Source: Loripinus fragilis (lineage: Eukaryota > Mollusca > Bivalvia > Lucinida > Lucinidae). From it: 64,000 bases of DNA. The stretch's first letter is position 1. Each line of letters begins with the position of its first letter. A program made the position numbers and the translations under genes. Where the stretch lies: contig CAXHUL010000530.1 in assembly GCA_964019695.1 (NCBI GenBank), positions 558,001 to 622,000 on the forward strand. The letters run 5' to 3'. The notes under the pieces were generated by a model, which was not told the origin of the DNA, did no database searches, and worked only from the letters and a program-made list of their open reading frames with translations. Shown here piece after piece: positions 24,295 through 60,719 of the stretch.

Positions 24295-25385
<1,091 letters not shown>

Positions 25386-28044: not shown

Positions 28045-28180
28045 TAAAATGCAGATTTTTAGCTTGTAGTGAATGATGCAGAAGGCTTTTTAATGTCTGT
28101 GAAGCCCGAAGGGCAACTCGGTGACATTTATAGGTTAATGTTTTACAATATTCAGTGCAAGCTAAAAATCTGTATTTCAA
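28045..28180. mobile_element. Small foldback MITE beside the giant element
   Basis: Inverted ends AAATGCAGATTTTTAGCTTG and CAAGCTAAAAATCTGTATTT lie around a centre with ACTCGGTGACATTTATAGG. It ends within about 10 bases of the giant element's left end. Confidence 0.7.
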
Positions 28181-28319
28181 TTCTTATATATAACTCTTTC
28201 CGAAATAAAAAGGGATTTTCCGATAGAATTCCCTTTTTTTGATAGTAAAACATAAATATGGATATAACCATATTTGAGTTTTGCATCGTTATAGAGTACA
28301 AGAATGATGGTACAATGTA

Positions 28320-30130
28320 ATTTATTTTTCCTATGAACAGAGGAAATTTCCTCTGTTGTGACTGCTCAAAATGCAGAAATTGGTGTCCTTAAAATATGTT
28401 CCAAGTAGTGTATTTGTCCTAATAGTTTAAAGAAAAGTTCAAATATCAATTTGTATATCAAGTAGAAATCGGTTTACAACAGAGGAAATTTCCTCTGTTT
28501 TGACAATGGGACAAGTCTTCCTTTAATCACAATCAGATTTTCATCTTATTTCAGAACAGAGGAATTTTCCTACATTTTACTTTCAGTATCTCAACAATAT
28601 GTAAAAAGAGTGACCTTTACAACAGAGGAATTTTCCTCTGTTTAGTAGTTCGAAAATTTCCTATAGTGACTTCCAGAATTGATTTATTTTACATTCTAGT
28701 CATAACTTAAATATTACCAATTTCCAACAGAGGAATTTTCCTCCGTTCGGTAATTCAACAATTTCCTATTGCGAGAATTAAAAGCCCATTTTCCTATAAT
28801 TAAAATGAAGAACCATGTTTGTTAACATTTCCATCTTAATCATAACTTAAATGTTTCCACTTTTCAACAGAGGAATTTTCCTCCGTTTTCCATTCTGTAT
28901 CTCGACAATCAATAAAAGCAGAGAAATTTTACAACAGAGATATTTTCCTCTGTTAAATAGTTCGACAATTTCCTATAGTGACTTCCAGAACTGAGAGCCT
29001 AACTTGTTAGACATTCTAGTCATAACTTTAATATTACCAATTTTCCATTTTCCAACAGAGGAATTTTCCTCCGTTCGGTAATTCAACAATTTCCTATTTT
29101 GATAATTAAGAGCCCACTTTCCTATAATGAAAATTAAGAAACTCGTTTGCTATCATTTCCATCTTCACATAAATATCCATCATATCTTAAATGTTTCCAA
29201 TTTTCAACAGAGGACTTTTCCTCCGTTTTCTATTCTGTAGAATATCAACAATAAATAGAAGGAGTGACCTTTACAACAGAGAAATTTTCCTCTGTTTAGT
29301 AGTTCGCCAATTTCCTATAGTTACTTCCAGAACTCCAAACCCAACTTGTTTGACATTCTAGTTAAAACCTAAAATATATCTAAATTTTCCAACAGAGGAA
29401 TTTTCCTCCGTTCGGTAATTCAACAATTTCCTTTTGCGAGAATTAAGAGCCCATTTTCTTATGATAAAGATGAAGTACCCTGTTTATTATTATTTCCATC
29501 TTAGCATAAATATCCATCATAACTTAAATAAATTCAATTTTCAACAGAGAAATTTTCCTCCATTTTCAATTCTGTATCTCCAAAATCAATAAAAGGAGTG
29601 AATTTTACAACAGAGGAATTTTCCTCTGTTCAGTATTCAACAATCTCCTATAGTGATTTCCAGAACTCCGAGTCCAACTTGTTTAATATTCAAGTCATAA
29701 CTTAAATATGACCAATTTTCCAACAGAGGAATTTTCCTCTGTTTGGTAGTTCAATAATTTCCTATAGTGACTTCCAGAACTCTGAGCCCAACTTGTTTGA
29801 CATTCTAGTCATAACTTAAATATTGCCAATATTCCAACAGAGGAATTTTCCTCCATTCGGTAATTCAACAGTTTCCTATTGCGAAAATAAAAGCCCACTT
29901 TCCTATAATGAAAATGAAGAACCCTGTTTGTTATCATTTCCATCGTAACATAAATATCTATCATAACTTAAATGTTTCCAATTTTCAACAGAGGAATTTT
30001 CCTACATTCTCCATTCAGTTTCTCGACAATCAATAACAGGAGTGAATTTTACAACAGAGGAATTTTCCTCTGTTCAGTAGTTCTACAATTTCCTATAGTG
30101 ACTTCCAGAACTCCAAACCCAACTTTTTTG
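28320..30130 (+). repeat. Left subterminal array of CAGAGGAAWWTTCCTCTG hairpins
   Basis: About 17 copies of a ~22-bp perfect or near-perfect palindrome with core CAGAGGAAWWTTCCTCTG are separated by 45-130 bp spacers. The spacers recur in order: (T)CCTATAGTGACTTCCAGAA, then ACATTCTAGTCATAACTTAA, then TTCCTATTGCGA, then CCATCTTA ... CATAACTTAAAT. The arrangement makes a higher-order period of about 330-350 bp with three palindromes. The array is not coding. Confidence 0.85.
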
Positions 30131-33100
30131 ACAGTTTGACCCCAATCAGGTCCGGACAGAATGTTGGGCCTGATCTGAGTCCAAATTGTTTGGAAGGGTT
30201 ATCAGCAGATGACAATTACATGTAAAACTTTACACAACGTTAAAATACATCGGTTCAACTTCAACTTGTCCTAAACCTCTAAAGTGTCAAACAGTTTTGA
30301 CCTCTATCAGGTCCGGACAGAATATAGGGCCTGATCTGGGTCCAAATTACTTGAAAGGGTTATTATCAGATGACAATGTCATGTAAATGTTTGATGCAAA
30401 GTTAAAATACATTGGTTCGATTTCACCTTTTTAGAACCTCTAAAGTGTCAAACAGTTTGGACCCGGATCAGGTCCAGACAGAATGTTGGGCCTGATCTGG
30501 GTCCAAATTGTTTGAAACATTTATCCGCAGATGTCATCTGCTGACAAAGTCAATGTAAAGGTTTCAATCAAAAATAAAACATTGGTTAAACTCCAACTTG
30601 TCATAACCTCTAAAGTGTCAGACAGATTGGACACCTATCAGGTCCGGACAGAATGTTGGGCCTGATCTGGGTCCTAATTGTTTGAAAGGGTTATCAGCAG
30701 ATGACAATGTCATGTAAAGGTTTAACGCAAAGCTAAAATACATCAGTTCAACTTCAACTTGTCATAACCTCTAAAGTGTCAAACAGTTTGGATCCGGATC
30801 AGGTCTGGACAGAATGTTGGGCCTGATCTGGGACTAAATTGTTTGAAACACTTATCAGCAGATGTCATCTGCTGACAAAGTCATGTAAAGGTTTAACAAA
30901 AAAATAAAACATTGGTTCAACTCCAACTTGTCATAACCTCTAAAGTGTCAAACAGTTTTGACCCCTATCAGGTCCAGAGAGAATGTCAGGCCTGATCTGG
31001 GTCCAAATTGTTTGAAAGGGTTATCAGCAGATGATAATGTCATGTAAAGGTTTAACGCAAAAATAAAACATTGGTTCAACTCCAACTTGTCATAACCTCT
31101 AAAGTGTCAAACAGTTTGGACCCGGATCAGGTCCTGACAGAATGATGGGCCTGATCTGGGTCCAAATTGTTTGAAAGGGTTATCAACAGATGACAATGTC
31201 ATTTTTAAGTTTAACGCAAAGTTAAAATGCATCAGTTCAACTTCAACGTTAACCTCTAAAGTGTCAAACTGTTTTGACACCTATCAGGTCCTGACAGAAT
31301 GTGGGTCCTGATCTGGGTCCAAATTGTTTGAAAGGGTTATCAGCAGATGACAACGTCATTTTAAAGTTAAACGCAAAGTTAAAATACATGGGTTCAACTT
31401 CAACTTGACATAACCTCTAAATTGTCAAACAGTTTTGACCCCTATCAGGTCCAGAAAGAATGTTGGGCCTGATCTGGGTCCAAATTTTCTGAAAGGGTTA
31501 TCAGCAGATGACAATGTCATGTAAAGGTTTAACGCAAATTAAAAAACATTGGTTCAACTTCAATTTGTCATAACCTCTAAAGCGTCAATCAGTTTAACCC
31601 CTATCAGGTCCAGACAGAATGTTGGGCCTGATCTGGGTCCAAATTGTTTTAAATGGTTATCAGCAGATGACAATGTCATGTAAAAGTTTAACACATAGTT
31701 GAAATACATGGGTTCAACTTCAACTTGTTATAACCTCTAAAGTGTCAAACAGTTTAACCCCTATCAGGTCCTGACAGAATGTTGGGCCTTATCTGGGTCC
31801 AAATTGTTTGAAAGGGTTATCAGCAGATGACAATGTCATGTAAAAGTTTAACGCAAAATTAAAATACATCGGTTCAACTTCAACTTTTTATAACCTCTAA
31901 AGTGTGTAACGGTTTAGACCCGTATCAGGTCCAGACAGAATGTCGGGCCTGATCTGGGTCTAAATTAATTGAAATGCTTATCAGCAGATCACAATGTCAT
32001 GTTAAAGTTTAAGTCAAAGTTAAAAGACATTTGTTCAATTTTAACTTGTCATAACCTCTAAAGTGTCAAACAGTTTTGACCCATATCAGGTGTGGGCAGA
32101 ATGCCGGGCCTGATCTGGGACCAAATTACTTGAGAGGGTTATCAGCAGATGACAATAACATGTGAAGGTTTAACAGAAAGTTAAAATACAATGGTTCAAT
32201 TTCACCTTTTCATAACCTCTAAAGTGTCAAACAGTTTGGACCCAGATCATGTCCAGACAGAATGTTGGGCCTGATCTGGATCCAAATTGTTTGAAACACT
32301 TATCTGCAAATGTCATCTGCTAAAAAAGTCATGTAAAGGTTTAACGCAAAGTTAAAATACATCGGTTCAACTCCAACTTGTCACAACCTTTAAAGTGTCA
32401 AACAGTTTGGACCCTAATCAGGTCTGGACAGAATGTCGGGCCTGATCTGGGTCCAAATTGTTTGAAAGGGTTATCAGCAGATGACAAAGTCATGTAAAGG
32501 TTTAATGCAAAGATAAAATACATCGGTTTAACCTCAACTTGTCATAACCTCTAAAGTGTCAAACAATTTTGACCCCTATTAGGTCTGGACAGAATGTCGG
32601 GCCTGATCTGGGTCCAAATTGTTTGAAAGGGTTATCAGCAGATGACAATGTCATGTAAAAGTTTAACGCAAAGTTAAAATACATCGGTTCAACTTCAACT
32701 TGTCCTAACCTCTAAATTGTCAAACAGTTTGGACCAGGATCAGGTCCAGACAAAATGTTGGGCCTGATCTGGGTCCAAATTGTTCGAAACACTTATCTGC
32801 AGATGTCATCTGCTGACAAAGTCCCTGTGAAGGTTTACATAAAGTTAAAATACATCGGTTCAACTCCAACTTGTCATAACCTCTAAAGTGTCAAACAGTT
32901 TGGACCCCTACCAGGTCCGGACAGAATATTGGGCCTGATCTGGGTCCAAATTGTTTGAAAGGGTTATCAGCAGATGACAATGTCATGTAAAGGTTTAACG
33001 CAAAGCTAAAACACATCAGTTCAACTTCAACTTTTCATAACCTCTAAAGTGTCAAACAGTTTTGACCCCTATCAGGTCCGGACAGAATTTCAGGCCTAAT

Positions 33101-35720
33101 CTGGGTCCAAATTGTTTGAAAGAGTGATCAGCAGATGACAATGTCATGTAAAGGTTTAACGCAAAGATAAAATACATCGGTTCAACTTCAACTTGTCATA
33201 ACCTCTAAAGTGTCAAACAGTTTGGACCCCTATCAGGTCTTGACAGAATGTCTTGCCTGATCTGGGTCCAAATTGTTTGAAAGTGTTATCAGCACATGGC
33301 AATGTCATGTTAAAGTTTAATGCAAAGTTGAAACACATCAGTTTAACTTCAACTTTTCATAACCTCTAAAGTGTCAAACAGTTTGGACCCCTATAACGTC
33401 CGGACAGATTGTCGGGCCAGATCTGGGTCTAAATTGTTTGAAATGGTTATCAGCAGATGACAATGTCATGTTATAGTTTAAGTCAAAGTTAAAATACATT
33501 GTTTCAATTTCAACTTGTCATAACCCCTAAAGTGTCAAATAGTTTTGACCCATATCAGGTGAGGGCAGAATGTCAGCCCTGCTCTAGGACCAAATTACTT
33601 GAAAGGGTTATCAGCAGATGACAATTAGATGTGAAGGTGAAGCATAAAATTAAAATACATCGGTTCAATTTCACCTTTTCATAACCTCTAAAGTGTCAAA
33701 CAGTTTGGACCCGGATCAGGTCGAGACAGAATGTTGGGCCTGATCTGGGTCCATATTGTTTGAAACACTTATCTGCAGATGTCATCTGCTGACAAAGTCA
33801 TGTCAAGGTTTAACGCAAAGTTAAAATACATCGGTTCAACTCCAACTTGTCATAACCTCTAAAGTGTCAAACAGTTTGGACCCCTATCAGGTCCGGACAG
33901 AATGTTGGGCCTGATCTGGGTCCAAATTGTTTGAAAGGGTTATCAGCAGATAACAAGGTCATGTAAAGGTTTAACGCAAAGTTAAAATACATCGGTTCAA
34001 CCTCAACTTGTCAGAATCTCTAAAGTGTCAAACAGTTTTGACCCCTATCAGGTCTGGACAGAATGTCGGGCCTGATCTGGGTCCAAATTGTTTGAAAGGG
34101 TTATTAAGAGAAGACAATGTCATGTATAAGCTTAACGAAAAGTTGAAATACATCATTTCAACTTCACTTGTCATAACCTCTAAAGTGTCAAACAGTTTTG
34201 ACACCTATCAGGTCCGGACAGAATGTGGGGCCTGATCTGGGTCCAAATTGTTTGAAAATGATATCAGCAGATGACAAGGTCATGTTAAAGTTTAATGCAA
34301 AGTTAAAATACATCGGTTCAACTGCAACTTGTCCTAACCTCTAAAGTGTCAAACAGTTTGGACCCCTATCAGGTCTGGACAGAATGTCAGGCCTGATCTG
34401 GGTCCAAATTGTTTGAAGGGGTTATCAGCAGATGACAATGTCATGCTGAAGTTTAACGCAAAGTTAAAATACATCGGTTCAACTTCAACTTTTCATAACC
34501 TCTAAAGTGTCAAACAGTTTGGACCCGGATCAGGTTTGGACTAAATGTTGGGCCTGATCTGGGTCCAAATTGTTTGAAACACTTATCTGCAGATGTCATC
34601 TGCTGATAAAGTAATGTAAAGGTTTAACGCAAAGTTAAAATACATAGGTTCAACTCCAACTTGTCATAACCTCTAAAGTGTCAAACAGTTTGGTCCCCTA
34701 TCTGGTCCGGACAGGATGTTGGGCCTGATCTTGGTCCAAATTGTTTGAAAGGGCTATCAGCAGACGACAATGTCATGTAAAGGTTTAACGCAAAGTTAAA
34801 GTACATCAGTTCAACTTCAACTTTTCATTACCTCTAAAGTGTCGAACAGTTTTTACCCCTATCAGGTCTGGACAGAATGTCGAGCCTGATCTGGGTCCAA
34901 ATTGTTTGAAAGGGTTATCAGCAGATGACAATGTCATGTTAAGGTTTAACGCAAAGTTAAAATACATCGGTTCAACTCCAACTTGTCATAACCTCTAAAG
35001 TGTCAAACAGTTTGGTCCCCTATCTGGTCCGGACAGAATGTTGGGCCTGATCTGGGTCCAAATTGTTTGAAAGGGCTATCAGCAGACGACAATGTCATGT
35101 AAAGGTTTAACCCAAAGTTAAAATACATCAGTTCAACTTCAACTTTTCATAACCTCTAAAGTGTCAAACAGTTTTTACCCCTATCAGGTCTGGACAGAAT
35201 GTCGAGCCTGATCTGGGTCCAAATTGTTTGAAAGGGTTATCAGCAGATGACAATGTCATGTTAAGGTTTAATGCAAAGTTAAAATACATCGGTTCAACCT
35301 CAACTTGTCATAACCTCTAAAGTGTGAAACAGTTTGGACCCCTATCATGTCCGGACAGAATGTCGGGCCTGATCTGGGTCCAAATTGTTTGAAAGGGTTA
35401 TCAGCAGATGACAATGTCATGTTAAAGTTTAACGCAAAATTAAAACACATCGGTTCAACTTCACCTTTTCATAACCTCTAAAGTGTCAAACAGTTTGGAC
35501 CCCTATCAGGTCTGGACAGAATGTCGGGCCTGATCTGGGTCCAAAATTTTTGAAAGGGTTATCAGCAGATGACAATGTCTTGTTTAAGTTTAACGCAAAA
35601 TTAAAATACATCGGTTCAACTTCAACTTGTCATAACCTCTAAAGTGTCAAACAGTTTGGACCCCTATCAGGTCTGGACAGAATGTTGGGCCTGATCTGGG
35701 TCCAAATTGTTTGAAACACA
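30130..35720 (+). repeat. Left tandem array, unit about 165 bp, about 33 copies
   Basis: Each unit runs: CCTCTAAAGTGTCAAACAGT, TTGGACCCCTATCAGGTCCG, GACAGAATGTYGGGCCTGAT, CTGGGTCCAAATTGTTTGAA, AGGGTTATCAGCAGATGACA, ATGTCATGTAAAGGTTTAAC, GCAAAGTTAAAATACATCGG and TTCAACTTCAACTTGTCATAA. The middle ~65 bases are an imperfect palindrome (AAACAGTTTGGACCC against GGGTCCAAATTGTTT, GATCAGG against CCTGATC). A unit variant carries a second palindrome, CAGATGTCATCTGCTGA. The frames at 34008-34235, 35268-35450 and 35639-35839 are translations of units. Confidence 0.9.
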
Positions 35721-36720
35721 GTATTAATAGATTTTCGAGATTGTTTTCCCCTTCTTCCGGCCCTTTTAGAGACGAAACAAAAGAGTATGGGGTACGGGAA
35801 ACAACTCGTACTGTATCGTTTTTTTTTACCAGCACACACAGTCCCGCAAAATCAAAATTTCTAACTAAATATTTATTCCGAGCCTAAATGCAGTGCCTGT
35901 TAAAAAAAACTGCCGTATATGTTAATTTTAGCAAGACAATTATTCAGTGTAGAACTGGCAGCAAATACATTTAACATAGATAGTTTGTAATACCTACGAG
36001 TTATCATTTTGTGGCACCACCTTTTAGTATACCAAAGGAGATGACGCACATCACGCACGCACACACGCGGCTTATCATCAACAGAGTGCAAGCGATTTTT
36101 TTCAATGTCACCAACCGAGCGCAAAACCCTCCCACCGACCGAGCGCAGATTCTATATGACTTTTTTATGGGACCCACCCGTAGTAAACGGGCAACATAAG
36201 TTTGTGTGCACAATAAAATACCGGGCCTTACAAGTAACGGTTCTTACTTAGTCAGTTTGTTGTCGCTCCCATTCAGATTGGTGAAATTACTCGTACAACA
36301 ACCGAGCGTGGGGAAAAAGCATTTTTATGGCAGAACTAGAGGAGAACGAACGACGCTGCAGAGGCATTTCATAGCCAACCCATCAATGTGATTTTAATGA
36401 AACTTTGAACGGTACCTCCACATGTAACTGCCCAAAATAATTGCGCTCAATCGACGAGCAAGGTCTCCGACCTCTATAGAAATCCTGCGCCCAATTGATG
36501 GCATCCTCCACGCCGAATTGATGAGCATTTGTGCTCAATTGACGAATCACCACACACGCACACACAACGACACACGACCGCGCTCTTTTTGTTTGATTGC
36601 ACAGAAAAGTTTTTCATAATAATCCCTGTCTTTCAAAAAAAGCTCCATCCGATATGAATAATTTTATATATTGACCTTTATGTTCATATATCGATTAAGA
36701 AATTACTTTATAAGGTTCAC
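35721..36720. other. Centre of giant element, non-repetitive part
   Basis: Several short frames overlap on both strands (35900-36565) with no recognised domain. A C/A-rich stretch near 36050-36070 is simple sequence. I see no transposase motif here, which is where an autonomous element's gene might be expected. Confidence 0.45.
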
Positions 36721-39075
36721 TTGTATATGATCAGGCATTTCAAATCTCCGTAAACATAACAGAGCAGATCCCGATCAGGCATCTCACAGAACTGCCTGAT
36801 CTGGATCTGCACTGTTTACAAAACCGTTTAAATGTGTCTTTATGAGGTAGAAGGTTTACTTCATGAGGACTTGTGTCGTCTCAAAATAGTTTCAACCTTA
36901 TAAATGGGTTCTTTTTTTTATTTGATTGCACAGAAAAACTTTTCATAAATAGCATTTCCTTCAAAACTCCATTAACATTTTGATCAAACCTTGATTTTCA
37001 AAATCCATATACCTTTGTTAACGAAAACGTTTAATGCCGCCTCACGAGCATATAACACAAATCCACTTGTGGTATGATCAGATATTTCATATCTCCATTA
37101 GCAAAACACAGAGCAGACCCCTATCAGACAGCTCTCGCGAGAGTCGCCTGATCAGGATCCGCTTTGTTTTCAAAGATCAAAACATTTTTGAATCCGCAGC
37201 ACGAGCGTATTGCACAAGTTCCACTTGTGTATGATCAGATATTTCATATCTTGACTTCATACGCAGACAGGACAGACCCTGATCAGGCAGCTCTCACGAG
37301 AGCCACTTGATCTGGATCCGCCTTGTTTACAAAAACGCTCTTAAGGCGCCCCAAGGACATATAGCACCTATGCTAAGACATTTCCTATATCCTTAGGCAA
37401 ACAGAGCAGAGCATGACCAGGCAGCTCTCACGTGAGCTGCCTGATCTGGATCCGCCTTGTGTACAAAAACATTTTAAAGGCCACCCACGAGCATAAGCAC
37501 AAGTCCCAGTTGTGTATGATCTCCTTAAGGAAACAGAGCAGACTGTGACGAGCCATCTATCACGAGAGCCGTCCGACCTGGATCCACCTTGTTTTCAGAA
37601 ACGATTCAAAGGCACCAATGAGCATTGGTTCCACTTGTACTTGTGTATGATCAGATATTTCAAATCTCCATAAGCAAACAGAGCAGACCCTGATCAGGCA
37701 GCTCTCACGAGAGCTGCTTTATCTCGATCTGCATTGTTTACAAAAACATTTTAAAGTTGCAGCACGAGTTTATAGCACAAGTTCCACTTGTGTATGATCA
37801 GATATTTCGTATCTCTATAAGCAAACAAAGGAGGCCGTGATCAGGCAGTTCTCACGGGAGCCGCTTGATCTAGATCCATCGTGTTTACAAAAAAGTTTAA
37901 AGCCGCCACACGAGCATATAGGTTCCACTTGTGTATGATCAGACATTTCATATCCCCATCAGCAACATAGTGGACCATGACCAGGCAGCTCTCACGAGAG
38001 CCGCTTGATCTGGATCCACTTTGTTTACAAAAATGTTTAAAGCCGCCGAATGAGCGTATGGCACAAGTTCTACTTGTTTCATATCCACTTGTATATGATC
38101 AGATATATCATATCTCCTTAAGCAAACAGAGTGGACCATGACCAGGCAGCTCTCAAGAGAGCCGCTTGATCTGGATCGATTTTGTTTGCAAAACATTTTA
38201 AAGCCGCCGAACGCGCATATGGCACAACTTCAACTTGTGTATGATCAGATATTTCATATCCCCATAAGCAAACAGAGTGGGCCATGACCAGGCAGCTCTC
38301 ACGAGAGCCGGCAGATCTGGATCCACTTTGTTACCAGAAACGTCTTAGAGCCATCGCACGAACATATAGCAAAAGTTCCACTTGTTTCATATCCACTTAT
38401 GTATGATCAGATATTTCATATCCCCATAAGCAAACAGAGTAGACCCTATTCAGGCAGCTCTCAAGAGAGCTGCTTGATCTAGATCTACTTTGTTTACAAA
38501 GAGAGTAGACCCTGGTCAGGCAGCTCTCACGAGAGCCGCCTGATCCGGATTTACTTTGTTTACAAAAACGTTTCAAAGCCGCCGCACGAGCATATATGAT
38601 CAGATATTTATATCCCCATAAGCAAGACAGAGTAGACCCTGATCAGGCAGCTCTCACGAGAGCAGCCTGATCCGGATCTACTTTGTTTACAAAAACGTTT
38701 TAAAGCCGCCGTAAGAGCATATCACACAAGCTCCACTTGTGTATGATCAGATACTTCATATCCCCGTAAGCAAACAGAGTAGACCCTGGTCAGGCAGCTC
38801 TCACGAGAGCCGCCTGATCCGGATTTACTTTGTTTACAAAACGTTTCAAAGCCGCCGCACGAGCATATATGATCAGATATTTCATATCCCCATAAGCAAG
38901 ACAGAGAAGACCCTGATCAGGCAGCTCTCACGGGAACCGCCTGATCGGGATCTACAAAAACGTTTTAAAGCTGCCGCACGAGCATATAACACAAGTTCCA
39001 CTTGTGTATGATCAGATATTTCATATCCGAGTAGACCCTGCTCACGAGAGCCGCCTGATCTGGATTGACCTTGTT
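36720..39075 (+). repeat. Central hairpin array, unit about 150 bp, about 15 copies
   Basis: Units share GTATGATCAGATATTTCATA, TCTCCATAAGCAAACAGAGC, AGACCCTGATCAGGCAGCTC, TCACGAGAGCCGCCTGATCT, GGATCCGCTTTGTTTACAAA, AACGTTTTAAAGCCGCCGCA, CGAGCATATAGCACAAGTTC and CACTTG. The stretch GATCAGGCAGCTCTCACGAG plus AGCCGCCTGATC is a hairpin. One unit is doubled near 38440-38560. The frames at 37034-37234, 37948-38196 and 38739-39011 are translations of it. Confidence 0.9.
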
Positions 39076-39379
39076 TACAAAAACGTTTTTAAAGCCGCTC
39101 TCCGGCCTGTTTTAATGTATTTGAACCCTTTTTGCGCGAACATATCACGAGCACAATTATTTCATGCCAAGCTATAGTGTTCAAAAAAGTTATTCAACCT
39201 AAAGAAAACGGCAACAGCAAATTGAAAAGAGCTACTAGTATACAAAAAATAAAATAATAAAGATGAAGATTAGCCTGCGCATCTACGAAGCCTTATCCGC
39301 ACCTTTTTATTTGATATCCGTCTATTATAGTGGTTAAAGTGATCAAATGGATAAATTGTTTCCCCTTCTACTCGAGAAA
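39076..39379. other. Unassigned spacer in the giant element
   Basis: AT-rich text of about 300 bases between two hairpin arrays. Nothing was recognised. Confidence 0.4.
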
Positions 39380-41700: not shown

Positions 41701-44700
41701 CAACTTTTTGCGTTAAACATTTACATTAACTTTGTCAGTAGATGACATCTGCTGATTAATGTTTCAAACAATTTGGACCAAGATCAAGCCCAACATTCTG
41801 TCCGGACCTGATCTGGGTACAAACTGTTTGACATTTTAGAGGTTATGACAAGTTGAAGTTGAACTGATATATTTTAACTATGTGTTAATTTTTTACATGA
41901 CATTGTCATCTGCTGATAAACCTTTCAAAATTTTTTGACCCAGATCAGACCTGAAACATTTTGGACTCAAATCAGGCCCAGCATTCTGTCCGGACCTGAT
42001 CCGGGTCCAAGCTGTTTGACACTTTAGAGGTTATGACAAGTTGAAGTTGAACCAATGTATTTTAACTCTGCGTTAAACCTTTACATGACATTGTCATCTG
42101 CTGATAACCCTTTCAAGTAGTTTGGACCCAGAACAGGCCCGACATTCTGTCCGGACCTGATAGGGGTCCAAACTCTTTGACACTTTAGAGGTTATGACGA
42201 GTTGGAGTTGAACCAATGTAACCTTTACAATGACTTTGTCAGCAGATGACATCTGCTGATAAGTGTTTCAAACATTTTGGACTCAGATCAGGCCCAACAT
42301 TCTGTCCGGACCGATATATTTTAACTATGCGTTAAACTTTTACATGACATTTCATCTGCTGATAAACATTTCAAACAATTTTGACCCAGATCAGGCCTGA
42401 CATTCTGTCCGGACCTGATTTTGACACTTTGGAGGTTATAACAAGTTGAAGTTGAACCTATGTATTTTAACTTTGCCTTAAATCTTAACATGACATTGTC
42501 ATCTGCTGATAACCCTTTCAAACAATTTGGACCCAGATCAGGCCAGACATTATGTCCGGACTTGATAAGGGTCAAACTGTTGCCACTTTAGAGGTTATGA
42601 CATGTTGAAGCTGAACCGATGTATTTTAATTTTGCGTTAAACTTAAACATGACATTGTCATCTGTTGATAATGACAAGTTGAAGTTGATCCAATATTTTA
42701 TTTTTGCGTTAAACTTTAACATGACTTTCAGCCGATGATATCTGCTGATAAGTGTTTCAAGCATTTTGGACTCAGATCAGGCCCAACATTCTGTCCTGAC
42801 CTGATCAGGGTCCAAGCTGTTTGACACTTTAGAGGTTATGACAAGTTGAAGTTGAACCGGTGTATTTTAACTCTGCGTAAAACCTTTACATGACTTTGTT
42901 ATCTGCTGATAACCCTTTCAAATAGTTTTGACCCAGAACAGGCCCGACATTCTGTCCGGACCTGATAGGGGTCCAAACTCTATGACACTTTAGACGTTAT
43001 GACAAGTTGGAGTTGAACCAATGTTTTATTTTTGCGTTTAACCTTTACAATGACTTTGTCAGCAGATAACATCTGCTGATAAGTGTTTCAAATAATTTGG
43101 ACCAAAATCAGGCCCAACATTCTGTCTGGACCTGATCCTGGTTCAAACTGTTTAACATTTTAGAGGTTATGACAAGTTGAAGTTGAACAGATGTATTTTA
43201 ATTTTGCCTAAACCTTAATAGACATTGGCATCTGCTGATAGCCCTTTCAAGTAATTTGGACCCAGATCAGGCCGACATTCTGCCCACACCTGTTAGGGGT
43301 CCAAACCATTTGACACTTTAGAGGTTATGACAAGTTGAAGTTGAACCGATGTATTTTTCTTTGCGTTAAACCTTGAAATGACATTGTCATCTGCTGACAA
43401 CCCTTTCAAACAATTTGGATCCAGATCAGGCCAGACATTCTGTCCGGACCTGATAAGGGGTCCAAACTGTTTGATACTTCAGAGGTTATGACAAGTTGAA
43501 GTTGAACCGATATATTTTAATTATGCATTAAACTTTTACATGACATTGTCATCTGCTGATAAACATTTCAAACAATTTTGACCCAGATCAGGCCTGACAT
43601 TCTGTCCAGACCTGATAGGGGTCAAAACTGTTTGACACTTTGGAGGTTATAACAAGTTGAAGTTGAACCGATGTATATTAACTTTGCCTTAAATCTTCAC
43701 ATGACATTGTCATCTGCTGATAACCCTTTCAAACAATTTGGACCCAGATCAGGCCAGATGTTCTGTCCCGACTTGGCAAGGGTCAAACTGTTTGACACTT
43801 TAGAGGTTATGACATGTTGAAGTTGAACCGATGTATTTTAAATTTGCGTTAAACTTAAACATGAAATTGTCATCTGTTGATAACCCTTTCAAACAATTTG
43901 GACCCAGATCAGGCCTGACATTCTGTCCGGACCTGAAAGGGGTCCAAACTGTTTGACACTTTAGAGCTTATGACAAGTTGGAGTTGAACCAATATTTTAT
44001 TTTTGCGTTAAACCTTTACATGACTTTGTCAGCAGATGACATCTGCTGATAAGTGTTTCAAACATTTTGGACCCAGATCAGGCCCAAGATTCTGTCCAGA
44101 CCTGATCGCGGTCCAAGCTGTTTGACACTTTAGAGGTTTTGACATGTTGAAGTTGAACCAATGTACATGTGTATTCTCAACTCTGCATTAAACCTTTACA
44201 TGACATTGTCATCTGCTGATAACCCTTTCAAGTAGTTAGGACCCAAATCAGGCCTGACATTCTGCCCAGACCTGATAGGGGTCAAAACTGTTTGACACTT
44301 TAGAGGTTATGACAAGTTGAAGTTGAACCGATGTATTTTTCTTTGCGTAAAACCTTGACATGACTTGTCATCTGCTGACAACACTTTCAAACAATTTGGA
44401 CCCAAAATCAGGCCAGACATTCTGTCCGAACCTGATAGGGGTCCAAACTGTTTGACACTTTAGAGGTTATGGCAAGTTGAAGTTGAACCGATATATTTTA
44501 ATTATGCGTTAAACTTTTACATGACATTGTCATCTGCTGATAACCCTTTCAAACAATATTGACCCAGATCAGGCCTGACATTCTGTCCGGATCTGATAGG
44601 GGTCAAAACTGTTTGACACTTTGGAGGTTATAACAAGTTGAAGTTGAACCGATGTATTTTAACTTTGCCTTAAATCTTTACATGACATTGTCATCTGCTG

Positions 44701-47700
44701 ATAACCCTTTCAATCACTTTGGACCCAGATCAGGCTCGACATTCTGTCCGTACTTGATATGGGTCAAACTGTTTGACACTTTAGAGGTTATGACATGTTG
44801 AAGTTGAACTGATGTATTTAAATTTTGCGTTTAACTTAAACATGACATTGTCATCTGTTGATAACCCTTTGAAACAATTTGGACCCAGATCAGGCCCGAC
44901 ATTCTCTCGGGACCAGAAAGGGGTCCAAACTGTTTGACACTTTAGAGGTTATGACAAGTTGGAGTTGAACCAATATTTTATTGTTGTGTTAAAACTTTAA
45001 ATGACTTTGTCAGCAGATGATATCAGCTGATAAGTGTTTCAAACATTTTGGACTCAGATCAGGCCCAACATTCTGTCTGGACCTGATCTCGGTCCAAGCT
45101 GTTTGACACTTTAGAGGTTACGACAAGTTGAAGTTGAACCAATGTATTTAAACTCTGTGTTAAACCTTTACATGACATTGTCATCTGCTGATAACCGTTT
45201 CAAGTAGTTTTGACCCAGAACAGGCCCCACATTCTGTCTGGACCTGATAGGGATCCAAACTCTTTGACACTTTAGAGGTTATGACAAGTTGGAGTTGAAC
45301 CAATGTTTTATTTTTGCGTTAAACCTTTACAATGACTTTGTCAGCAGATGACATCTGCTGATAACCCTTTCAAACAATTTGGACCAAGATCAGGCCTAAC
45401 ATTCTGTCCGGACCTGATCTGGGTCCAAACTGTTTGACACTTTAGAGGTTATGACAAGTTGAAGTTGAACTGATGTATTTTAACTTTGCGTAAACCTGAC
45501 CATGACATTGTCATCTGCTGATAGCCCTTTCAAGTAATTTGGACACAGATCAGGCCCAACATTCTGCCCGCACCTGTTAGGGGTCCAAACTATTTGACAC
45601 TTTAGAGGTTATGACAAGTTGAAGTTGAACCGATGTATTTTTCTTTGCGTTAAACATTGACAAGACATTGTCATCTGCTGACAACCCTTTCAATCAATTT
45701 GGACCCAGATCAGGCCCGACATTCTGTCCGGACCTGATGGGGGTCCAAACTGTTTGACACTTCAGAGGTTATAACAAGTTTAAGTTGAACCGATGTATTT
45801 TAACGTTGCCTTAAATCTTTACATGACATTGTCATCTGCTGATACCCCTTTCAAACAATTTAAACCCAGATCAGGCCAGAAATTCTGTCCGGACTTGATA
45901 GGGCTCAAACTGTTTGACACTTTAGAGGTTATGACATGTTTACATTGAACCGATGTATTTCAATTTTGTGTTAAATTTAAACATAAAATTGTCATCTGTT
46001 GATAACCCTTTCAAACAATTTGGACCAAGATCAGGCCCAACATTCTGTCCGGACCTGAAAGGGGTTTAAACTGTTTGATACTTTAGAGGTTATGTCAAGT
46101 TGAAGTTGAACCATTATTTTATTTTTGCGTCAAACCTTTACATGACTTTTTCAGCAGATGACATCTGCTGATAAGTGTTTCAAACATTTTGGACTCAGAT
46201 CAGGCCCAACATTCTGTCCAGACCTGATAAGGGTACAAACTGTTTGACACTTTAGAGGTTATGACAATTTGTAGTTGAACCGATGTATTTTAACTATGCG
46301 TTAAACCTTTACATGACATTGTCAGCAGATGACATCTGCTGATAAGTGTTTCAAACAGTATGGACCCAGAGTAGGCCCGACATTCTGTTCGGACATGATC
46401 TGGGTCCAAACTGTTTGACACATTAGAGGTTATGACAAGTTGAAGTTGAACCAATGTATTTTAACTTTGCATTAAACCTGAACATGACATTGTCATCTGC
46501 TGATAACCATTTCGAACAATTTGGACCCAGATCAGGCCCAACATTCTGTCCGGACCTGATAGGGGTAAAACTGTTGGACACTTTAGAGGTTATAACAAGT
46601 TGAAGTTGAACCAACGTATTTTAACTATGCTTCAACTTTTTACATGGCATTGTCATCTGCTGATAACCCTTTCAAACTATTTGGACCCAGATCAGGCCCA
46701 ACATTCTGTCCGGACCTGACAGGGGTTAAACTGTTTGACACTTTAGAGATTATAACAAGTTGAAGTTGAACCAATGTATTTTAACTATGCGTTAAACCTT
46801 TACATGACCTTGTCAGCAGATGACTGCTGCTGATAAGTGTTTCAAATCATATGGACCCAGATCAGGCCCGACATTCTGTTCGGACATGATCCGGGTCCAA
46901 ACTGTTTGACACGTAAGAGGTTATGACAAGTTGAAGTTGAACCAATGTATTTTAACTTTGCATTAAACCTGAACATGACATTATCATCTGCTGCTAACCA
47001 TTTTCGAACAATTTGGACCCAGATCAGGCCCAACATTCTGTCCAGACCTGATAAGGGTACAAACTGTTTGACACTTTAGAGGTTATGACAATTTGAAGTT
47101 GAACCAATGCATTTTAACTATGCGTTAAACTTCAACATGACATTGTCATCTGCTGATAACCCTTTCAAACAATTTTGACCCAGATCAGGCCCAACATTCT
47201 GTCCAGACCTGATAAGGGTACAAACTGTTTGACACTTTAGAGGTTATGACAATTTGAAGTTGAACCGATGTATTCTAACTTTGCGTTAAACTTTAACATG
47301 ACGTTGTCATCTGCTGATAACCCTTTCAGACAATTTGGACCCAGATCAGGCCTGACATTCTGTCTGGACCTGATAGGTGTAAAAATTGTTTGACACTTTA
47401 GAGGTTATGACAAATTGAAATTGAACCAATGTATTTTAACTTTGATTTAATCTTTAACATGACATTGTCATCTGCTGATAACAATTTTAAACAATTTAGA
47501 CCCAGATTAGGCCTGAATCTGTCCGGACCTGATAGGGGTCCAAACTGTTTAATACTTTAGAGGTTATGAAAAGGTGAAATTGAACCGATGTATTTTAACT
47601 TTGCTTTTAACCTTAACATGTTATTATCATCTGCTGGTAACCCATTTCAGTAATTTGGACCCAGATCAGGCCCGACATTCTGCCCGCACCTGATAGGGGT

Positions 47701-50430
47701 CAAGTCTATTTGACACTTTAGAGGTTATGACAAGTATTTTAACTCTGATTTAACTTTAAACATGACATTGTCATCTGCTGTTAACCATTTCAGATAATTT
47801 GGACCCAGTTCAGGCCCCACATTCTTTCTGGACCTGATAGGGGTCAAACTGTTTGACACTTTAGAGGTTATGACAATTTTAAGATGAACCAATGTATTTT
47901 AACTTTGCGTTAAACTTAAACACGACATTGTCATCTGCTGATAACCCTTTCAAACAATTTGGACCCAGATCAGGTCCGACATTCTGTCCAGACCTGATAA
48001 GGGTACAAACTGTTTGACACTTTAGAGGTTATGACAATTTGACGGTGAACAGATGTATTCTAACTTTGCGTTAAACTTTAACATGACGTTGTCATCCACT
48101 GATAACCCTTTCAGACAATTTGGACCCAGATCAGGCCCGACATTCTGTCTGGACCTGATAGGTGTAAAAATTGTTTGACACTTTAGATGTTATGACAAAT
48201 TGAAATTGAACCAATGTATTTTAACTTTGATTTAATCTTTAACATGACATTGTCATCTGCTGATAACCATTGTAAACAATTAAGACCCAGATCAGGCCCG
48301 AATCTGTCCAGACCTGATAGGGGTCCAAACTGTTAAATACTTTAGAGGTTATGAAAAGGTGAAATTGAACCGATGTATTTTAACTTTGCGTAAACCTTAA
48401 CATGTTATTATCATCTGCTGGTAACCCATTCAAGTAATTTGGACCCAGATCAGGCCCCACATTCTGTCTGGACCTGATAGGGGTCAAACTGTTTGACACT
48501 TTAGAGGTAATGAAAAGTTGAAGTTGAACCAATGTATTTTAACTTTGCGTTAAACCTTTACATGACATTGTCATCTGCTGATAACCCCTTTCAAACAATT
48601 TGGACCCAGATCAGGCCCAACATTCTGTCCGGACCTGATAGGGGTCAAACTGTATGACACTTTAGAGGTTATGACAAGTTGAAGTTGAACCGATGTATTT
48701 CAACTGACAAGTTGGAGTTGAACCAATGTTTTATTTTTGTGTTTAACCTTTACAATGACTTTGTCAGCAGATAACATCTGCTGATAAGTGTTTCAAACAA
48801 TTTGGAATAAGATCAGGCCCAACATTCTGTCTGGACCTGATCCGGGTTCAAACTGTTTAACATTTTAGAGGTTGTCATCTGCTGATAACCCCTTTCAAAC
48901 AATTTGGACCCATATCAGGCCAAACATTCTGTCCGGACCTGATAGGGGTCAAACTGTATGACACTTTAGAGGTTATGACAAGTTGAAGTTGAACCGATGT
49001 ATTTTAACTATGCATTAAATTTTTACATGACATTGTCATCTGCTGATAACCCTTTCAAACAATTTGGACCCAGATCAGGCCCAACATTCTGTCCAGACCT
49101 GATAGGGGTACAAACTGTTTGACACTTTAGAGGTTATGACAAGTTGAAGTTGAACCGATGTATTTCAACTATGTGTTAAACTTTTACGTGACATTGTCAT
49201 TTGCTGATAACCATTTCAAACAATATGGACCCAGATCAGGCCCAACATTCTGTCTGGGCTTGATAGGGGTTAAACTGTATGAAGCTATAGAGGTTATGAC
49301 AAATTAAAGTTGAACCGATGTATTTTAACTTTGTGTTAAACTTAAACATGACATTGTCATCTGCTGATAACCCTTTCAGATAATTTGGACCCAGTTCAGG
49401 CCCCACATTCTGTCTGGACCTGATAGGGGTTAAACTGTTTGACACTTTAGAGGTTATGACAAGTTGAAGTTGAACCCATGTATTTAAACTATGCATTAAA
49501 CTTTTAAATGACATTGTCATCTGCTGATAACCCTTTCAAACAATTTGGACCCAGATCAGGCCCAACATTCTGTCGGGACCTGATAGGGATCCAAACTGTT
49601 TGACACTTTAGAGGTTATGACAAGTTTAAGTTGAACAGATGTATTTTAACTTGGCGTTAAACTTTAACATGACGTTGTCATCTGCTGATAACCGTTTCAA
49701 ACAATTTGAACCCAGATGAGGCCTGATATTCTGTCTGGAGCTGATAGGGGTCAAAACTGTTTGACACTTTAGAGGTTATGACAAGTTGAAGTACAACCAG
49801 TGTATTTTAACTTTGCGTTAAACTTAAACATGACATTAAACTTAAACATGACAATCATTACATGACATTGTCATCTGCTGATAGGGGTCAAAACTGTTTG
49901 ACACTTTAGAGGTTATGACAAGTTGAAGTTGAACTGATGTATTTTAACTTTGCGTTAAACTTAAACATGACTTTAAACTTAAACATGACAATCTTGACAT
50001 GACATTGTCATCTGCTGATAACCCTTTCAAACAATTTGGACCCAGATCAGGCCCGACATTCTGTCTGGACCTGTTAGGGGTCCAAGCTGTTTGACGCTTT
50101 ATGGGTTACGACAAGTTGGAGTTGAACCAATGTTTTATTTTTGCGTTAAACCTTTACATGACTTTGTCCGCATATGACATCTGTTGATAAGTGTTTTAAA
50201 CAATTTGGACCCAGATCAGGCCCGACATTCTGTTCGGAAATGATAGGGGTCAAAACTGTTTGACACTTTAGAGGTTATGACAAGTTTAAGCTGAACTGAT
50301 GTTTTTCAACTTTGCGTTAAACTTTTCATGACATTGTCATCTGCTGATAACCCTTTCAAACAATTTGGACCCAGATCAGGCCCGACATTCTGTTTCAACC
50401 TTATAGGGATCAAACTGTTTGTCGCTTTAG
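41700..50430 (-). repeat. Right tandem array, inverted, unit about 165 bp, about 52 copies
   Basis: This has the reverse complement of the left array's unit order: TTTACATGACATTGTCATCT, GCTGATAACCCTTTCAAACA, ATTTGGACCCAGATCAGGCC, CGACATTCTGTCCGGACCTG, ATAGGGGTCCAAACTGTTTG, ACACTTTAGAGGTTATGACA and AGTTGAAGTTGAACCGATGT. Some units are truncated or fused, for example near 42590-42700, 48700-48900 and 49810-49990. The frames at 42321-42575, 46423-46614, 46842-47036 and 49236-49520 are translations of units. Confidence 0.9.
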
Positions 50431-50680
50431 AGGTTAAACTGTAATTAATGTACGACAGAAATATTGAACAAATTGGGCTCTCAATTGGAAATTATTGAAT
50501 TACCGAACAGAGGAAAACTCTCTATTCTAAAATTGGTAATATTTAAGTTATTACAAGAATGTCAAACAAGTTGGGCTCTGAGTTCTGGACGTCACTATAG
50601 AAATCTGTAGAACTACTGAAAAGAGGAAAATTCCTCTGTTCTTAAACTGTAATTAATGTAAGACAGAAATATTGAACAAT

Positions 50681-51237
50681 AATAGTAAGTGAGTATGTTC
50701 AGGAAATACCACAATCACAAACTGCAGACAACCCCGTGGCACCCAAGGAAGAGCCGCTCAACCATCACGAGGCACCAGGAAGACAAATTAAACAAAGCAA
50801 TCAGCTCTCTCTTCCCCATCAAGATGATTGCAATACTAGAAAGAACATAAAGTAGCATACAACAAAACATAGAACAATTACAGACTCCCACAGTGGGAAT
50901 AGCAATAAACAAAAAGTCAACAACAACAGAATCACCGCCTTAAAACGGACAGCAGCCTAAGCCACCAGGGGGCTTAAATACATTTTACTGGTACCAAATC
51001 TTCGCCCTAGATTCTGCTGTTGTTGTAGTACACGAAATGTTCAGCTCACATGGAGGCCATCTAACTAATGCAATGTATCATCATGGAAAAAACACTCTAA
51101 TCAAATTACTACACCATGATGAAACAAAGAAAAGGGCTCATGACTCACAGATAGTCAGAGCTAAAGAAAACCTCAAGTTGAGCCACGGTGGGTCCAGCTA
51201 CAGATAAGCATGAGGCACCGACCAACCGATTAAAGCT
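50681..51237 (-). repeat. Retroelement 3' untranslated tail (tail family 1)
   Basis: In - strand sense this follows the RT stop and ends ...CATACTCACTTACTATT at 50681. It is nearly identical to 62740-63296, so the two are copies of one element. Text such as CTCCCACAGTGGGAATAGCA and GCCACCAGGGGGCTTAAATA is shared. The - strand frame at 50715-50912 lies in this tail and is not a gene. Confidence 0.75.
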
Positions 51238-51891
51238 TTACGCCAGAGCCGTCATAGAGTCTGAGGCCTGACCCACCGTCGTGCAATTAAAGAGGAAACC
51301 ATAGCTATAAACCGTGATTGGGTTTAAAACTAGGCATGCAGACTGTCGCATGATATCCAAGTTATATCCAACCCTTATATAACGTTTTACAATCTTTTTG
51401 AATTGATCACTAAAATTAGGTTTTCCAACAATTCGTTTGAATTTATAGACTAAATCACCATAAAATATAGGTTCTGATATGCCTTGTTGCAGAAGAGTTT
51501 TTAACCCAATGTTGTATTTAACAATTAACTCTGAGTGTATGTGGTAGAATGTAGAAAATGCTTTTCGAATTTTATGATATCTATAACCTTATTTTAATAA
51601 TTTAGCAGTAAAAAATAAGTTTCTGTTGTTGAAGTCATCAACATTAGAACACACTCTAGCAAAACGAATAAGCTGAGAAATGTATACACCATAGGAAGGA
51701 GAGCGAGGAACATCTCCATCAAGAAATGGAAAATTTACTATTTCAAAATTAAAATCATCCCGTTTATCATAAATTTTAGAAGAAACTATGCCATTTGTTA
51801 TTGACAAGTTCAAGTCCAAAAATGGAGCTTCAGTATCAGAAGAATTTGCCTTATTTAACTGAAGTTCAGTGGGATATATCTGACCTACCAT
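51238..51891 (-). pseudogene. Retroelement reverse transcriptase, C-terminal part, broken
   Basis: The frame at 51589-51891 starts inside the RT and contains APFLDLNLSITNG, KIYDKRDDF, NFPFLDGDVPRSPSYG and LIRFARVCSN. After a stop near 51589 the matching protein continues in sequence down to 51238, with KIRKAF, GLKTLLQQGISEP, FYGDLVYKFK, IMRQSACLVLNPI and FLFNCT, ending in a TAA at 51238-51240. FLDL ... VYxK(R)-type stretches after the YxDD core are typical of RT C-termini in Penelope-like and related elements, but the exact family is not certain. The catalytic YxDD core is missing, so this is a 5'-truncated copy inserted in the giant element's right arm. Confidence 0.75.
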
Positions 51892-54641
51892 TTGTTCAAA
51901 ATAAGGATTATCAATATTAAGTTAGTTATCTCAATATATGGAGGTAGAGTTAAAAGCTTCAAGTAGGCTCTAAATTCTCGTAATTAGAAATTGTTGAATT
52001 ACCGAAAGGAGGAAAACTGGATATATTTTAGGTTTTTACTAGAATGTCAAAAAAGTTGGGTTTGGAGTTCTGGAAGTCACTAAAGGACATTGTAGAACTA
52101 CTGAACAGAGGAAAATTCATCTGTTGTAAAATTCACTCCTTTTATTGATTGTCAAGAAACTGAATGGAGAATGTAGGAAAACTCCTCTGTTGAAAATTGG
52201 AAACATTTAAGTTATGATGGTTATTTATGTTAATATGGAAATGATAACAAACATGGTTCTTCATTTTCATTATAAGAAAGTGGGCTTTTATTTTCGCAAT
52301 AGGACATTGTTAAATTATAGTTGGAGGAAAATTCCTCTGTTGGAATATTGGCAATATTTAAGTTATAACTAGAATGTCAAATAAGTTGGGCTCAGAGTTC
52401 TGGAAGTCACTATAGGAAATTATTGAACTACTGAACAGAGGAAAATTCCTCTGTTGGAAAATTGGTCATATTTAAGTTATGACTTGAATATTAAACAAGT
52501 TGGACTCGGAGTTCTGGAAATCACTATAGGAAATTGTCGAACTACTGAACAGAGGAAAATTCCTCTGTTGTAAAATTCACTCCTTATATTGATTGTGGAG
52601 ATACAGAATGGAAAACGGAGGAAAATTCCTCTGTTGAAAATTGGAAACATTTAAGTTATGATGGATACTTATGCTAAGATGGAAATGATAATAAACAGGG
52701 TTCTTCATTTTCATCATAGGAAAATGGGCTCATAATTTCGCAAAAGGAAATTGTTGGATTACGGAACGGAGGAAAATTCCTCTGTTGGAGAATTGGATAT
52801 TTTAGGTTTTGACTAGAATGTCAAACAAGTTGGGTTCAGAGTTCTGGAAGTAACTATAGGAAATTGGCGAACTACTAACAAGGAAAATTCCTCTGTTGTA
52901 AAGGTCACTCCTTCTATTTATTGTTGATATTCTACAGAATAGAAAACGGAGGAAAATTCTTCTGTTGAAAATTGGAAACATTTAAGATATGATGGATATT
53001 TATGTTAAGATGGAAATGATAGCAAACGGGTTTCTTCATTTTCATAATAGTAAAGTAGGCTCTTAATTCTCCAAATAGAAAATTGTTGAATTACCGAACG
53101 GAGGAAAATTCCTCTTTTGGAAAATTGGTCATATTTAAGTTATGACTTGAATATTAAACAAGTTGGACTCGGAGTTCTGGAAATCACTATAGGAAATTGT
53201 CGAACTACTGAACAGAGGAAAATTCCTCTGTTGTAAAATTCACTCCTTATATTGATTGTGGAGATACAGAATGGAAAACGGAGGAAAATTCCTCTGTTGA
53301 AAATTGGAAACATTTAAGTTATGATGGATACTTATGCTAAGATGGAAATGTTAATAAACAGGGTTCTTCATTTTCATCATAGGAAAATGGGCTCATAATT
53401 CTCGCAAAAGGAAATTGTTGGATTACGGAACGGAGGAAAATTCCTCTGTTGGAGAATTGGATATTTTAGGTTCTGACTAGAATGTCAAACAAGTTGGGTT
53501 CAGAGTTCTGGAAGTAACTATAGGAAATTGGCGAACTACTAAACAGAGGAAAATTCCTCTGTTGTAAAGGTCACTCCTTCTATTTATTGTTGATATTCTA
53601 CAGAATAGAAAACGGAGGAAAATTCCTCTGTTGAAAATTGGAAACATTTAAGATATGATGGATATTTATGTTAAGATGGAAATGATAGCAAACGGGTTTC
53701 TTCATTTTCATTATAGGAAAGTGGGCTCTTAATTCTCCAAATAGAAAATTGTTGAATTACCGAACGGAGGAAAATTCCTCTGTTGGAAAATTGGTAATAT
53801 TTAAGTTATGACTAAAATGTCAAACAAGTTAGGCTCTCAGTTCTGGAAGTCACTATAGGAAATTGTCAAACTATTGAACAGAGGAAAATTCCTCTGTTGC
53901 AAAATTTTCTCTACTTTTATTGATTGTCAAGATACAGAATGGAAAACAGAGGAAAATTCCTCTGTTGAAAAGTGGAAACAATTAAGTTATGATTAAGATG
54001 GAAATGATAACAAACAGGGTTCTTCATTTTTATTATAGGAAAATGGGCTCTTAATTCTCGCTATAGGAAATTGCTGAAGTACCGAACGGAGGAAAATTCC
54101 TCTGTTGGAAATTGGTAATATTTAAATTATGACTAGAATGTAAAATTAATCAATTCTGGAAGTCACTATAGGAAATTTTCGAACTACTAAACAGAGGAAA
54201 ATTCCTCTGTTGTAAAGGTCACTCTTTTTACATATTGTTGAGATACTGAAATTAAAATGTAGGAAAATTCCTCTGTTCTGAAATAAGATGAAAATCTGAT
54301 TGTGATTAAAGGTAGACTTGTCCCATTGTCAAAACAGAGGAAATTTCCTCTGTTGTAAACCGATTTCTACTTGATATACAAATTGATATTTGAACTTTTC
54401 TTTAAACTATTAGGACAAAAATACTACTTGGAACATATTTTAAGGACATCAATTTCTGCATTTTGAGCAGTCACAACAGAGGAAATTTCCTCCGTTCATA
54501 GGAAAAATAAATTACATTGTACCATCATTCTTGTACTCTATAACGATGCAAAACTCAAATATGATTATATCCATATTTATGTTTTACTATCAAAAAAAGG
54601 GAATTCCATCGGAAAATCCCTTTTTATTTCGGAAAGAGTTA

Positions 54642-59025: not shown

Positions 59026-59214
59026 TAATATCAGTTACTTCTTGTACTAATTGCATTGTTGCACATTGACCTGGTAACATTGTCTATCTTTATCAGGTCA
59101 ATAAGCCGTTGCACATTTTGAGTAACGACGTCAATGACGTTGAATCGACAAGAAAATCCACAAATACGCTATAATCGCTAGTTTGAAGTGTGAACCAATA
59201 TGTAAACTGATAAA

Positions 59215-60700: not shown

Positions 60701-60719
60701 TTGCATAGAAAGCAACTTT

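Follow-up and report, generated by a model that had tools for sequence, protein, structure and literature searches.

A 26.4-kb inverted structure in Loripinus fragilis interpreted as one copy of a giant, non-coding, foldback-type DNA transposon family

Introduction

What kind of object is a 26.4-kb block of nested, inverted hairpin arrays: a mobile element, a palindromic satellite, or the product of a local rearrangement or an assembly error? The question is raised by a 64,000-nucleotide stretch of DNA from the lucinid bivalve Loripinus fragilis (assembly GCA_964019695.1, contig CAXHUL010000530.1, positions 558,001 to 622,000 of the forward strand), which is referred to here as the window, and by the element that occupies its positions 28192–54640 (26,449 bp). 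The initial annotation, made from the letters of the window, described a non-coding foldback element and wavered between an undescribed giant class of non-autonomous transposon and a mirror-image satellite. Here, we describe the dispersal, anatomy, and variation of this element, which is very probably one copy of a giant, non-coding, foldback-type DNA transposon family mobilised in trans; we file the family as a foldback-type DNA transposon and leave its superfamily unspecified. The surprise lies in its size, its uniformity, and the absence of short pairs of ends. Overall, the initial observation was partly confirmed and its interpretation partly supported.

Dispersed copies with constant ends

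Self-comparison and a tandem-repeat scan, the former recommended by the initial annotation, revealed an inverted structure of 26.4 kb. Its inverted ends start with AACTCTTTCCG and match exactly over 33 bases within the element (38 with the palindromic flank included), as had been claimed for them. The genome was searched in one assembly (1.987 Gb, 685 contigs), where the exact 30-base tip was found 145 times (73 forward, 72 reverse) and its reversed control not once; other loci thus share these ends, a point on which the annotation had asked for a check, and the copy number implied by exact tips is a lower bound. A 301-bp query from the left end gave 40 scored matches out of 978 first-look candidates, the latter not being used as a copy count. 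Besides the query place itself, the scored matches were 96–99% identical and started at, or at most 18 bases outside, the element boundary; one was the window's own right end, and 38 lie elsewhere. Among the 100 of 145 tips that were listed, 39 facing pairs were recognised at distances of 16,087–50,004 bp (median 28,660), with 33 of them spanning 21–39 kb and, among the matches listed, none below 16 kb. Other families sharing the 15-bp tip were unsupported, the tip being continued by other bases in one match versus three in the control.

The longest pair, at 50 kb, was considered as a possible autonomous copy, which was also unsupported: the two long frames inside it (1291 and 1089 amino acids, at G000:C13:38886000-38895999, L058) look by eye like a nested non-LTR (long terminal repeat) retrotransposon, and the 10-kb stretch read within the pair matches no element probe. 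At least some of the 50 kb comes from this nested, retrotransposon-like insertion.

To characterise insertion sites, the flanks of 32 facing pairs were compared (nine from the 301-bp search, the window, two loci from the tip search, and 20 others; 28 of the 39 listed pairs are included). In 30 of the 32 pairs the element is flanked by perfect 4-bp direct repeats, no pair had a longer one, and the chance of a 4-bp match was 0.106 when flanks of different copies were paired. The duplicated sequences were ATAT (10), AAAT (3), GTAT, ATTT, ACAC, and TTAC (2 each), and nine singletons, so that 15 of these 30 are ATAT, AAAT, or ATTT. A target preference reaches about six bases past the duplication, with a consensus resembling TTAy-ATAT-rTAa. 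The non-palindromic duplications of other copies (GTAT, TTGT, GGAG, ACAG) fix the element end at AACTC, and therefore place the window element at 28192–54640 with the duplication ATAT; each boundary lies one base further in than the initially proposed 28191..54641 with bounding TATA.

Empty sites were sought for ten insertions by joining the flanks at one copy of the duplication and comparing them with limited DNA from the genome. The joined flanks of copy C17 match uninterrupted sequence over the junction in the window (136 bp, 84.6%) and in L020 (148 bp, 85.8%), and those of C16 do so over 98 bp at 79.6%. The other eight sites gave no such match: C14 matched solely a repeat in its own flank, and seven of the ten sites gave no junction-spanning match in the DNA compared.

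A local inverted duplication, a palindromic satellite block, or an assembly artefact would be suggested by arms that consist of tandem arrays, by a run of N that lies about 355 bp outside the left end, and by inner arrays that behave like satellite arrays. Against this, many unlinked places share the ends, the internal layout, and its orientation and differ in their flanks and in their locus-specific 4-bp duplications, and we consider such an origin scarcely credible. The mirror-image satellite or recombination block of the initial annotation accordingly fails as a description of the whole, and its giant non-autonomous transposon is supported by the dispersed ends, the duplications in 30 of 32 pairs, and the empty-site matches at two of ten sites.

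Anatomy of the window copy

The features of the element are given below by window position and strand, as obtained with Tandem Repeats Finder (TRF), hidden Markov models (HMM), and comparison with other copies; middle-array units are those scoring above 100 bits.

28188–28191, no strand: left target-site duplication ATAT, a direct repeat with 54641–54644
28192–28555, plus: left terminal domain of 364 bp with the tip AACTCTTTCCGAAATAAAAAGGG; 97.0–99.2% identity in six other whole copies
28555–30130, plus: left outer array of short hairpins CAGAGGAAWWTTCCTCTG (TRF); 28187–29765 mirrors the right arm at 94.8%
30131–35716, plus: left middle array, 34 units of about 161 bp with one 66-bp palindrome each (TRF and HMM)
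35718–36661, no strand: central unique segment C1; lacking in C19a, 95.7–97.0% identity in the remaining five of the six other whole copies
36701–39100, plus: central hairpin array of 66-bp palindromes with GATCAGG (TRF, palindrome scan, 19/24 arm identity to the middle palindrome)
39173–41651, no strand: central unique segment C2, non-coding; 96.4–97.9% identity in five of six other whole copies
41766–50436, minus: right middle array, 51 units in the opposite orientation to the left (TRF and HMM)
50478–50646, minus: outer-array unit between cargo and middle array; 81–86% identity to left outer units, same location in the other five cargo-bearing copies
50681–51970, minus: captured reverse-transcriptase fragment (cargo) with homologues found and an in-frame stop; same location in six of seven whole copies, 95.9–98.0% identity
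51971–54276, minus: right outer array, mirroring the left and with additional units (TRF, arm alignment, copy comparison)
54277–54640, minus: right terminal domain of 364 bp; 98.1% identity to its own left counterpart
54641–54644, no strand: right target-site duplication ATAT, a direct repeat with 28188–28191

A small inverted-repeat sequence at 28046–28185, resembling a miniature inverted-repeat transposable element (MITE) by eye, adjoins the left end of the element.

Mirror symmetry and hairpin arrays

Two mirror-image layers had been proposed, of which the outer one stood. Over the outermost 1.58 kb the two arms truly mirror each other, at 94.8–95.5% identity (95.5% overall, ungapped), with 98.7% in the first 150 bp and mostly 92–97% thereafter (90% in one alignment window), and alignments in shifted register score lower (81–91%). 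The predicted core of its hairpins was also recovered, a relaxed form of CAGAGGAA/TTCCTCTG occurring 31 times in the element and not at all in the remainder of the window. The middle layer consists of the same repeat in opposite orientation on the two arms; the dozens of units of about 165 bp with a palindrome of about 65 bp that had been noted here proved to be the units of about 161 bp with a 66-bp palindrome listed above. Mirror symmetry of these middle arrays was nevertheless rejected, since no unit-by-unit mirroring was found in the window copy: the diagonal means are flat, and the collinear share of best-match steps from one arm to the other is 0%. Elsewhere, collinearity between a copy's own arms reaches 8% of steps in C20 and 21% in C19a.

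The central hairpin array had been described as unrelated to the others, which did not hold: the arm of its hairpin agrees with that of the middle hairpin at 19 of 24 bases, a value reached by none of 100,000 shuffles. A lone hairpin in the left flank (8466–8531) agrees with both the central and the middle arm at 18 of 24 bases (again 0 of 100,000 shuffles), and middle-type 66-bp hairpins also lie outside the element at 27409–27537 and 10782–11088. More generally, near-perfect palindromes of about 60–66 bp are frequent outside the element: 21 centres passed the chosen threshold (five of them within a single TA repeat), and none did so in any of three locally shuffled versions of the window. 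These palindromes resemble a hairpin superfamily from which the arrays of the element may derive. A further shuffle test across five hairpin families (130 of 165 cells paired versus a mean of 75, all shuffles exceeded) is not relied on, families D and E being one base out of register with A–C.

Interior and coding content of whole copies

Seven copies were read whole, namely that of the window and six more with lengths of 28,992, 22,453, 27,445, 31,309, 25,018, and 31,976 bp, together with 10 kb of an eighth. Segment C1, the central array, C2, and the reverse-transcriptase fragment occur in the same order and on the same arm in six of the seven. Over the unique segments (C1, C2, and cargo), the five other copies that share this interior are 95.7–98.0% identical to the window copy, and the mean distance among all six is 2.59%. 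Biallelic variants over the same segments are distributed in a star-like pattern (300 singletons versus 23 shared), as from descent from a single master copy.

No coding domain had been seen in the element, and none of its own was found. The longest stop-to-stop frame in any of the seven whole copies does not exceed 138 amino acids, and the longest frame of the window element (116 amino acids versus a shuffled mean of 125) shows no excess over chance. Pfam gave no match for eight longer frames of the window and none reaching the cut-off for 10 of 59 centre frames of at least 45 amino acids. Rfam at gathering scores and a tRNA scan of the window returned nothing; the tip and a middle-unit pattern were both absent from IMG/VR, positions 28160–30130 matched no plasmid, and the outer hairpin had one match in GTDB genomes, in Enterococcus, which was taken as chance. 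What the earlier description missed is a dead reverse-transcriptase reading frame at 51238–51921 on the minus strand. It contains 2 to 9 stops per cargo-bearing copy (counted across indels, the window count including the stop that ends the frame). This piece is dead cargo of the family, broken in the window copy by an internal stop; its reading as a private insertion of the window copy was rejected, the fragment occupying the same location in six of seven whole copies at 95.9–98.0% identity.

The presence of this fragment in six of seven whole copies might suggest a retroelement amplified by the enzyme it encloses. The piece is, however, only a fragment, it carries in-frame stops in every copy that bears it, and it is internal to one arm, whereas C19a lacks it and yet has intact ends and a duplication; we give this explanation next to no credence.

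Dynamics of arms and arrays

Comparison of arms within and between copies indicates how these elements have changed. Of the 14 arms compared over their outer 1.5 kb, 11 are nearest to the same arm of another copy, from which it follows that whole elements moved; the left arm of C20 and both arms of C19a are nearest to their own opposite arm. The two arms of a copy are identical at 0.92 (C5), 0.955–0.957 (four copies), 0.97 (C19a), or 0.976 (C20) of positions, and over the terminal 364 bp a copy's own arms agree at a mean of 0.989 (ten copies) versus 0.986 for ends of different copies. The middle arrays of the same arm are partly collinear between copies (14–61% of steps; ten comparisons covering five pairs of copies), and they comprise 26 to 54 units in left arms and 48 to 87 in right arms; arrays have therefore gained and lost units.

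In C20, both terminal sequences are identical and have in common a 4-bp shortening unseen in the other six whole copies. C19a is without cargo and centre, its arms are 97% alike, and the first seven units of its right array match its own left array in order. To judge from these sequence patterns, C20 and C19a show exchange between arms. C19a also carries an insertion of about 1 kb in its left middle array (element positions 6881–7925), with inverted ends around TATACTCAGAAAAACAAT, which was seen in no other whole copy.

Proposed mechanism and its weighing

Terminal inverted repeats (TIRs), the constant 4-bp length of the duplication, and the target preference are signs of a DDE-type transposase that cuts and joins DNA, a link that is partly established knowledge, and the lack of a transposase gene in the copies read suggests that the enzyme is supplied in trans. 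A DDE-type transposase encoded elsewhere would recognise the ends and move the element whole, inserting it with a 4-bp stagger, and the present copies would have arisen in a burst from a single master. In analogy to Galileo and its tandem repeats, the subterminal hairpin arrays would serve as many binding sites, letting the transposase hold a long element. Unequal exchange or slippage would then alter array length, and occasional conversion or recombination would take place between the two arms, as in C20 and C19a.

Several observations weigh against mobilisation in trans of such a family, or against the part given to its hairpins. Two of the 32 pairs have imperfect duplications (3/4 and 2/4 bases matching), and individual target sites are weakly symmetrical (0.56 in the duplication, 0.38–0.47 just outside, and 0.28–0.41 further away). 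Only two of ten sites (C17 and C16) gave empty-site matches in the limited DNA compared, and for 22 of the 100 listed ends no exact adjacent partner lies within 100 kb. A transposase or autonomous partner was not found in the seven whole copies and 10 kb of the eighth, a sample that a coding copy could escape. As for the hairpins, stem columns across 655 units are no better conserved than the spacer (0.911 versus 0.917). Compensatory changes in the stems exceed all 200 shuffles (237 versus a mean of 140 ± 9, maximum 164), an excess that can arise from kinship of the units without any structure; the test of structural constraint on the hairpins thus obtained no support.

Non-coding DNA transposons normally collapse to MITEs. 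A stronger proposal, which we regard as speculative and rather unlikely, is that gigantism is functional: the element would need its hairpin arrays in cis in order to move, either to hold multiple transposases on a scaffold or as a folded-arm substrate, and short derivatives would be immobile. If true, this would account for all 39 facing pairs seen being at least 16 kb.

Whatever the role of the arrays, non-autonomous DNA transposons are expected to be small, and an apparent burst of elements mostly 21–39 kb long breaks that expectation. The family shows long satellite arrays carried whole to many chromosomes, and it makes testable both the idea that subterminal repeats set transposition competence and the idea that transposon arms are a vehicle by which palindromic satellites spread. 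With long inverted arms, the dozens of sites would also be likely hotspots of inversion and assembly error.

Neighbouring repeats in the window

Other repeats surround the element. A BIV160-like array of 165-bp units lies at 4128–5238, where the published BIV160 primer matches three places with 2–3 mismatches (0 in 100 shuffles), a match that by itself suggests a bivalve host, and a 430-bp stretch at 1098–1528 is related to it. A dispersed MITE-like family of about 245 bp, with ends like TGAGCCGYGACATG and pairwise identities of 79–87%, is represented at 1537–1755, 2821–3066, 11704–11950, 21254–21501, 25376–25576, and 58780–59031, five of these six members having a loopless palindrome of about 52–66 bp near one end. 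Another MITE-like family, whose 66-bp palindrome includes CTGATCAG, occurs at 11153–11386 and 22431–22663, with partial relatives at 1926–2081 and 10568–10707. Finally, further tandem arrays, built of 65-bp and 107-bp units and having a hairpin of their own, lie at 60303–61603, possibly part of a different element.

Comparison with known systems

To our knowledge, within the literature searched, no element of this kind has been described, and the claim of novelty is provisional. The initial annotation had compared its plan with that of FB/TU foldback transposons, and as a structural label foldback is fair: long inverted arms of tandem repeats enclose a non-coding middle, and dispersed copies carry target-site duplications. 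FB/TU foldbacks have target-site duplications of 8–10 bp, however, and Tc1/mariner elements duplicate TA; the duplications found here are 4 bp long and include ACAC, GGAG, and AACG, in agreement with neither.

In plan the element resembles Tetris, a non-coding foldback element of Drosophila virilis whose long inverted repeats are composed of a flanking domain, tandem repeats of about 220 bp, and an inner domain, the repeats also occurring in satellite-like arrays (PMC4079207). According to the cited passages, Tetris has TIRs of up to 1,735 bp and three structurally complete copies, compared with an arm of about 17 kb including the middle array (C19b) and 39 facing end pairs among the matches listed here (PMC4079207). 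Membership fails on the duplication, which is 8–10 bp in Tetris (PMC4079207) and precisely 4 bp long in 30 of the 32 pairs compared here.

Galileo, a P-superfamily element of Drosophila, is similar in its foldback-like long TIRs, which are lengthened by tandem repeats and by captured fragments of transposable elements (PMC4168063, PMC3688188). Its longest D. willistoni copy measures 9,021 bp, has repeats of about 140 bp, and is described in the passages cited as having no transposase segment; tandem-repeat TIRs are reported there for only one D. willistoni copy, in contrast to all seven whole copies, of 22–32 kb, here (PMC4168063, PMC3688188). Galileo duplicates 7–8 bp (PMC4168063) rather than 4 bp, which argues against membership of the P superfamily. 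The tandem repeats in its TIRs hold extra transposase-binding sites, and the authors suggest that these offset a length penalty (PMC3688188). We think that, by analogy, such compensation may also apply to the present family.

Other superfamilies besides Sola2 also produce 4-bp duplications, and mobilisation of the family specifically by a Sola2 transposase is a possibility that we hold tentatively and do not favour. Sola2 elements generate 4-bp AT-rich duplications, and ATAT, AAAT, and ATTT, which account for 15 of the 30 here, are those named for Polysphondylium Sola2 (PMC3627910); Sola2 elements have also been reported in molluscs (PMC10294476). On the other hand, the passages cited describe coding elements (PMC3627910), and no transposase was seen here. 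Their TIRs measure 12–21 bp (PMC3627910), a length that may set them apart from the present family, in which a 33-base exact tip run lies within far longer inverted arms of more than 1.5 kb. Half of the duplications here are other 4-mers (GTAT, ACAC, TTAC, GGAG, and others), ACAC, GGAG, ACAG, and AACG not being AT-rich, and no transposase links the family to Sola2, no search aimed at Sola2 genes having been made.

Helitron and Helentron elements normally have neither long TIRs nor target-site duplications, and the satellite-bearing Helentrons (pearl elements) of bivalves are likewise not known to have long TIRs. The present family departs from this pattern in its long TIRs and in its constant 4-bp duplication in 30 of 32 pairs, and its identification as a rolling-circle element with central tandem repeats, of the kind known from bivalves, is thus highly improbable. 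The resemblance lies in the repeats: oyster Cg170 repeats of about 160–170 bp sit in Helitron-superfamily elements (PMC5139131, PMC8268682), and repeats of about 160 bp are carried by bivalve mobile elements (PMC5139131, PMC7492417), a BIV160-like array also lying in the window. The BIV160 repeat differs in sequence, by eye, from the 161-bp unit of the family. With the giant transposons Maverick, Terminon, and Burro, the family has in common a size above 20 kb (PMC6431247), but the cited parts of that review count elements that are large through their coding regions (PMC6431247), whereas the copies read of the present family have no intact gene of their own.

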